Shown here: positions 4,053-4,254 of the stretch, piece by piece
Position numbering within the stretch: position 1 is the first letter of the stretch
Layout: every line of letters begins with the position of its first letter
Origin: Marinobacter sp. LV10R510-11A
GTDB lineage: Bacteria > Pseudomonadota > Gammaproteobacteria > Pseudomonadales > Oleiphilaceae
DNA: 64,000 nt
Direction of reading: 5' to 3'
Assembly: GCF_900215155.1 (NCBI RefSeq)
Contig: NZ_LT907980.1
Coordinates: 3,286,001 to 3,350,000, forward strand
Notes under the pieces: model-generated
Database searches by the model: none
Seen by the model: only the letters and a program-made list of their open reading frames with translations
Told to the model about the DNA's origin: nothing
Program-made: the position numbers and the translations under genes

Positions 4053-4254
4053 AATAAGCTGACTCTGCCTTGCTATACGGGCTCGAGGCCCCGATGACTG
4101 TTCGAGTTATCGCTTTAGAGTCATGCAGCGCTACACACTGGTTATCGGTCTCTCGAAAGAGGAGCCGGTCATTCACCGAGCTGCTGCACGAAGACCCCCA
4201 GTTGCAGCTGGGGGTGGGCCTCAACTTTACCCATTAACGACAGAGATTATCCAT
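4053..4254 (-). ncRNA. Candidate bridge RNA of the IS110 element
   Basis: Long non-coding region upstream of the recombinase, the position of bridge RNAs in the IS110 subgroup. Read on the minus strand it is strongly structured: a stem CACCCCCAGCTGCAACTGGGGG, a stem around CTCTTTCGAGAG, and ATGACT pairing with AGTCAT around a loop containing GCGATAACTCG. A second stretch reads GATAACCAGTG. Its ten bases ATAACCAGTG (complement of 4136-4145) equal the plus strand at 3067-3076 across the element's other junction. Function is inferred from position and structure only. Confidence 0.5.

Follow-up and report, generated by a model that had tools for sequence, protein, structure and literature searches.

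The window, a stretch of 64,000 nucleotides of Marinobacter sp. LV10R510-11A, contains an IS110-type element on the minus strand (3075-4259), delimited by the ends that it shares with its relatives. It measures 1185 bp including one core CT, the core being found at the left junction (4258-4259) and at the right junction (3073-3074). The recombinase gene (3099-4052, minus strand) is intact and encodes a 317 aa IS110 family protein, which matched NF033542 (NCBIfam, 219 bits) as well as Pfam PF01548 and PF02371, and which has the DEDD and C-terminal Transposase_20 domains, as in IS110-group bridge-RNA elements. Its best solved relatives were IS621 (8wt6, 107 bits with phmmer) and ISCro4 (9t56, 105 bits). 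Residues D15, E59, D101, D104 and S239, which we take to be the catalytic residues, aligned with the D, E, D, D and S of the conserved motifs of IS621 (8wt6). The non-coding ends are of unequal length, 207 nt upstream of the recombinase gene and 24 nt downstream, and the genome holds a single recombinase copy (E up to 0.001).

The element interrupts an attC site within a cassette array. On one side, the TAAC of the interrupted R'' box, which constitutes the right target (3068-3071, plus strand), lies beside the point where a YefM/YoeB toxin-antitoxin pair (2561-3063) ends. On the other side, the remainder of the attC, from L'' to R' (4260-4336, plus strand, with R' GTTATAT at 4330-4336), precedes DUF4160 and DUF2442 genes. 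This remainder was assigned by the empty-site test described below, in which 6 of 8 L positions of the window copy were complementary. Two Rfam matches to group II intron D1-D4 (RF02001, 91 bits; RF01998, 48 bits) lie near the cassette array, at 9079-9442; class C group II introns are said to enter attC sites (cited in the excerpted text of PMC9229058). An IS91 family transposase (NF033538, 362 bits) stands beside a XerA-like tyrosine recombinase at 6849-8830; the latter scored below the integron-integrase cut-off, so there is no clear IntI among the nine proteins scanned.

Relatives were collected as 57 loci from species genomes, plus genus, order and class searches. With the window's own genome counted each time, the recombinase was found in 19 of 124 genomes of the genus (E up to 1e-60), in 19 of 390 genomes of the order and in 6 of 369 genomes of the class (both at E up to 1e-90); a scan of viral contigs gave zero matches. 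Loci of related copies are designated by L-numbers, the window copy being L058, and genomes by G-numbers.

According to the original prediction, the long non-coding end is strongly structured. This proved correct for 4045-4250 (minus strand), which folds at -81.8 kcal/mol with z = -4.2, none of 200 shuffles being as low. Three shorter sub-stretches were unexceptional (z of -1.2, -1.5 and +0.2), and the structural claim is therefore based on covariation in relatives. Alignment A1 comprises 30 bridge-RNA cores hand-picked for diversity among the parsed copies. Across these, the 26 proposed pairs are formed in 92.6% of cells and 19 of the 26 changed on both sides; the covariation score was 0.503, whereas shuffles gave 0.183 and slid partners no more than 0.125. 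The covariance model R1, built from 30 rows of which the window is one, gave the window RNA core (4047-4194, minus strand) a score of 150.7 bits, and Rfam at gathering threshold gave no match at the non-coding end.

All parts of the predicted RNA lie on the minus strand. A 5' hairpin, CCCCCAGCUGCAACUGGGGG (4195-4214), is proposed from the fold. The target loop would be closed by helix 1 of A1 (11 pairs), whose 5' strand (4183-4190) pairs with 4122-4129; 98.5% of its cells are paired and all 11 pairs changed on both sides. Within this loop, helix 2 (4147-4166, 94.6% paired) forms the hairpin that separates the two target guides. In the donor loop, a hairpin supported by A1 and by RNAalifold (4079-4091) separates the two donor guides. 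RNAalifold recovered the two-loop layout from A1 unaided, closing the donor loop by CUC/GAG, whereas in a donor stem drawn manually only 66% of cells were paired. The order of 5' hairpin, target loop and donor loop is the layout described for the IS621 RNA (5' stem-loop, target loop, donor loop; excerpts of PMC11208160). The 5' start would lie near 4239, as judged from the -10 box described below. The limits of the span first proposed for the RNA, 4053-4254, have to be replaced by those of the element and of the RNA core given above. In conclusion, the strong compensatory change in A1 indicates that the non-coding region encodes a two-loop bridge RNA, the structure that the original prediction had called for, and both the target and the donor guide loops could be located; the donor loop, like the left target guide described below, goes beyond the original prediction.

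When the 124 genomes of the genus were scanned with R1, 30 matches were obtained in 20 genomes. The bridge RNA of L171 (G054) has an altered right guide, GTAAGAAG, in a genome where a recombinase match is absent at E up to 1e-60; this RNA is probably a relic.

The sequence ATAACCAGTG on the plus strand (3067-3076) has its complement at 4136-4145, so that the recombinase-sense transcript contains AUAACCAGUG. Complementarity of the transcript across the distal junction, as initially proposed, is thereby confirmed, and only its extent has to be revised. Eight of the ten bases, AUAACCAG (4138-4145, minus strand), constitute a candidate right target guide (RTG). At the R'' end of attC it would pair with CTGGTTAT, composed of the core CT and the right target GGTTAT. 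In the window copy the two remaining bases lie opposite CA, which belongs to the end of the element itself; the common Marinobacter attC, GCCTGCACTTGTTA, also has CA at these positions.

We compared guide and target in the natural copies. In the first set (38 copies), the right end was located in 33 without constraint on the flank, and it is followed by GTTA in 31 of the 33, the exceptions being L023 and L026. The variable base of the RTG and the corresponding target base are A-T in 27 copies and C-G in 6, with no discordant copy. The larger set comprises 56 copies, 50 of which have a right end that could be parsed, the parser demanding C[TC][TGC]G?T at this place; there the RTG and target bases are A-T in 43 copies, C-G in 6 and G-C in one (L107), hence complementary in 50 of 50. 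The automatic parse of the L091 right end was wrong in the RTG and left donor guide counts as well as in the empty-site and promoter counts; read separately as CATAGTCACTTGTTA, it gives A-T for the RTG and is concordant for the left donor guide. The L114 guide was reset by hand. Outside the 50 are L023, L034, L045, L048, L050 and L105, which have no parsed right end; in three of them the element is followed by CTTGTTA (L034), CATGTTA (L105) or CTTATGT (L023). L026, which is one of the 50, has CTTGTATGG after its right end, and the Salinivibrio copy L116, 48% identical, combines the RTG AUAACAAAC with the target GTTTGTTA.

On a tree of 48 recombinases, which excludes five rows with a short recombinase together with L023, L034 and L105, the guide state changed at least six times and the target state at least six times. 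Four of four independent pairs on well supported branches agree, a number too small for a significant sign test. Since the RTG base stayed complementary to its target through these changes in all 50 copies, the match is more than chance; other copies, as had been anticipated, have guides that fit GTTA/TAAC at their own insertion sites. L107 is the sole parsed copy with an RTG ending in ACGAG, facing the right target CTCGTTA, and its site has no recognisable R' box; it is possibly a case of natural retargeting away from attC.

A second GAUAAC (4106-4111), also pointed out at the outset, was rejected as a guide. Its first bases vary in A1 (GATAAC, CATAAC, AATAAC), the bases that follow (ACTCG or TCTCG) are nearly constant, and the motif is lacking in many distant relatives that target TAAC; it therefore looks like scaffold. 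Together with the UCG that follows, it makes up a putative scaffold segment (4103-4111, minus strand) placed before the left donor guide, and RNAalifold pairs the CUC of this segment with GAG.

The most variable 10-nt window of the non-coding region (0.95 bits, compared with 0.11 elsewhere, in 14 Marinobacter elements) is GUGAAUGACC (4167-4176, minus strand), which we propose as the left target guide (LTG). The LTG of each copy was compared with the copy's own left flank, identity being scored in eight registers in the first set and in seven in the larger set, relative to permuted flanks; in register +1 the last guide base is placed on the first core base. In this register, identity was 0.480 compared with 0.362 for permuted flanks (n = 56, P = 0.001, the floor of 1000 permutations), and 0.452 compared with 0.299 in the distant copies (n = 21, P = 0.0005). 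Copies from the same genome or from close species are not independent; with one copy kept per genome and guide (about 41 rows), identity was 0.472 compared with 0.341, with P = 0.001 in 20 of 20 draws. A weaker excess was observed in register 0 (P = 0.009 for all copies, P = 0.0045 for the distant ones), so the register is not unique, and register -1 was marginal in the distant set (P = 0.04). Among the 17 Marinobacter copies, register +1 alone was not significant (P = 0.125), and the better of registers 0 and +1 gave P = 0.004. The window copy itself matches its flank at 3 of 9 positions in register +1 and at 6 of 9 in register 0. One-step shifts of the LTG register may have their origin in variation of the R''-L'' spacer of attC.

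Five copies parsed later were scored in the usual register. L178 matched at 7 of 9 positions and the others at 1, 2, 2 and 5 of 9; two of these four reach 6 of 9 in another register. L178 is the second copy in a genome that also holds L002, the closest relative of the window element, as established by matching contig coordinates. A single base distinguishes its guide from that of the window copy, and on the L178 flank the latter would likewise score 7 of 9. In G116, four copies (L168, L175, L181 and L182) have one and the same guide and four different left flanks, whose attC-like end is AACG in three copies and TTACG in the fourth; their right ends are followed by CTTGTTA, CTGTTA, CTTGTTA and, in one case, CTTGCCT. 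Mismatch of the left arm is evidently tolerated.

The nature of the target was examined on empty sites, reconstructed from the copies. A site was called attC-like if it had an R' box (CGTTR) together with complementarity at 6 or more of the 8 L positions. By this definition 33 of 48 sites are attC-like, copies not being thinned by genome in this count, compared with 6.2% of dinucleotide shuffles; 5 of the 48 score lower and 10 have no R' box. An earlier score that accepted any GTT as R' did not separate the sites from random TAAC places (median 10 compared with 9), and it was replaced for that reason by the score demanding CGTTR. The ten sites without an R' box may be insertions off attC or may have rearranged flanks. 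Nine of them keep the exact right box that matches the guide, whereas a T is inserted in the tenth, L093; the parser had demanded C[TC][TGC]G?T at the right flank of this set. At one of the ten, L041, the LTG matches at 8 of 9 positions. The guide of the window copy matched the attC set of the window no better than did the guides of other elements; this set (19 of 31 hits on the plus strand, several plainly due to chance by position and sequence) is too small and noisy to carry weight on tuning of the guide to the array.

These data bear on the possibility that recognition of the GTTA box, or of attC folded into a hairpin, is the work of the recombinase protein itself, the complementarity of the RNA being a by-product of shared sequence. 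Such recognition would be in keeping with the attC-like character of most empty sites, and the right target is so nearly constant that a single unchanging contact made by the protein could account for a large part of the pattern. It would not account for an RTG base that follows the target base in every parsed copy across repeated changes on the tree, for an LTG that follows the variable left flank, or for the sites that keep the right box without R'. The guide match of L041 at such a site favours guidance by sequence over recognition of a folded attC, and is suggestive only. We therefore consider protein recognition unlikely. The reading that we retain is that the non-coding 5' end encodes a bridge RNA guiding the IS110-type element to the attC R'' end; it is very probably correct and, although derived from sequences, is well supported by the comparison of copies. 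The same comparison of guides and targets supports the earlier proposal that homing to attC is due to an RNA guide pairing with GTTA.

The second loop would read the element's own joined ends. A candidate left donor guide (LDG), ACAGUCAUC (4093-4101, minus strand), matches ACAGTCA of the right end, that is the last bases of this end, and two variable positions were tested in 50 copies. One is concordant in 50 of 50 copies (42 C-C, 8 T-T). The other gave 39 A-A, 7 G-G, 1 T-T and three discordant rows; after correction of the L091 parse it is concordant in 48 of 50, L100 and L114 still being discordant. In L116 the LDG and the right end both read ATACTCG. The right donor guide (RDG), UAUAGCAAG (4069-4077, minus strand), was placed solely by position and by a conserved CAAG; it is proposed to pair with CTTG-TAT at the left end, which requires one G to be bulged. 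The left end of the element, CTTGTATG (4250-4259), is similar to the common target CTTGTTAT (compare 3067-3074), so that the donor end partly mimics the R'' side of attC.

Joining of the two ends would also create a promoter at the circle junction, composed of a -35 box TTGACA at the right end (3084-3089, minus strand) and a -10 box GATAAT at the left end (4246-4251, minus strand), 17 nt apart once the ends are joined. When the joined ends of relatives were scored for the best place with a spacer of 16-18, on sequence only, 45 of 50 reached at least 9 of 12, compared with 7.9% of letter shuffles. The promoter of IS621 is likewise formed by joined ends (excerpts of PMC11208160).

The following mechanism can be proposed, by which an IS110-type element would locate the joints between the cassettes of integrons. 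The relations between guide, target and donor are those displayed by natural copies; transcription, binding and catalysis we infer. Upon excision, the joined ends would form the promoter TTGACA-17-GATAAT and the bridge RNA would be transcribed from it. The recombinase would bind this RNA, as deduced from IS621. Recombination at the CT would then place the element, in one orientation, within the R''-L'' spacer, splitting the attC.

It may be asked whether the element is simply a member of the described IS1111-attC group (ISPst6, ISKpn4, ISPa25, ISPa21), which belongs to the same superfamily, has the same kind of target and likewise derives a guide RNA from a non-coding region (excerpts of PMC11187229 and PMC11616780). 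In that group the non-coding region is downstream of the gene and subterminal inverted repeats are present (excerpts of PMC11187229), unlike in the window element, where it lies upstream. These repeats measure 7-17 bp; the longest exact repeat in the outer 40/40 nt of the window element is 4 nt, compared with 11 nt in the IS1111-type control L136. The recombinase is 21% identical to that of IS4321 (30 bits with BLASTP), against 107 bits for IS621, values that come from different programs. Of the 30 IS1111-type loci fetched, six were searched with R1, and neither these nor the R751 stretch that carries IS4321 (L122) gave a match at E up to 1. Insertion occurs at R'' rather than at R'. Membership was rejected on the IS4321 identity, the R1 scan and the absence of the repeats, and we regard it as very improbable. 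Still less credible is the idea that the structured end serves the recombinase gene as a regulatory leader or a terminator and has no guiding role, because, for all its strong GC hairpin (4195-4214) and its position directly upstream of the gene, guide positions that covary with the flanking host DNA and with the far end of the element are not expected of a leader.

Splitting of attC by a bridge RNA-guided insertion should freeze cassette exchange, which would tie RNA-guided transposition to integron evolution. We further put forward, as a view for and against which the scales stand level, that two separate RNA-guided branches independently became integron specialists, the IS1111 type at R' and the present IS110-type clade at R''. 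In the latter, the right guide would be tied to the universal TAAC box, and the left guide would evolve rapidly, following the cassette sites of each host. If this is true, reprogramming of guides under selection has left a natural record in the left guide, and aquatic gammaproteobacteria have in this element a widespread inactivator of cassette exchange that is directed by sequence. The natural series of guides and targets, with a conserved right arm and a hypervariable left arm, should be useful for learning how bridge RNAs are retargeted. Because guides, ends and target are short and defined, the clade is easily testable in E. coli.

In the literature, the insertion sequences described as targeting attC belong to the IS1111 group (excerpts of PMC11187229, PMC11089894 and PMC11616780). 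PMC11616780 mentions IS110 in its abstract, but the text available names ISPa21 of the IS1111 group. The excerpts of PMC9229058 report IS110-family elements in Shewanella cassette arrays, none of them interrupting attC, and those of PMC12444791 cite IS1111 reports only. No IS110-type attC-homing element appeared among the matches listed for bridge RNA, seekRNA, IS110/IS1111, attC and integron, in literature that mostly excludes subscription papers, preprints and ISfinder, where the element may be on record. To RNA-guided homing to attC, already known in the IS1111-type branch, the present comparison would add a clade of IS110 type that uses the R'' end.

The two types appear, by eye, to use opposite ends of attC. 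Seven of 30 IS1111-type loci from the same order (L124, L136-L140 and L145) are followed by GTTA, as judged by eye in stretches some of which may stop short of the right end. Most of the seven run straight into a ribosome-binding site and a start codon, which corresponds to the R' end, reading in the cassette direction; L129 and L146, also of IS1111 type, appear by eye to be at an attC end as well. The order of the guides differs too: in seekRNA the match to the top strand comes before that to the bottom strand, and the window element has the reverse order, as reported for the IS110 type (excerpts of PMC11187229 and PMC11616780). On a recombinase tree that includes IS4321 as its single IS1111-type row, this row has a very long branch (9.55), and the 31 attC-clade recombinases split from L117, L118 and L119 with 98/97 support.

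These neighbours include ISEc32 and related IS110 elements (L117, L118), which are 39% identical. R1 weakly finds the RNAs of L117 (E = 8.7e-5), L118 (4.1e-6) and L119, the range being 8.7e-5 to 2e-8, and gives a partial match in L120 (E = 0.001). By eye, L118 has the same guide order as the window element, and its guides and flanks point to a target other than attC. The similarity to IS621 is only moderate (107 bits), and the proteins are of similar length, 317 aa here and 328 residues in the solved IS621 chain. The window element shares with IS621 and the IS110 group a long upstream non-coding end with a 5' hairpin and two loops, the order of the loops (target first, then donor) with a left and a right guide in each, the CT core and the joined-end promoter (Durrant et al., 2024; excerpts of PMC11208160). 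It differs from IS621 in its target, the R'' end of attC, and in the combination of a nearly fixed right guide with a hypervariable left guide.
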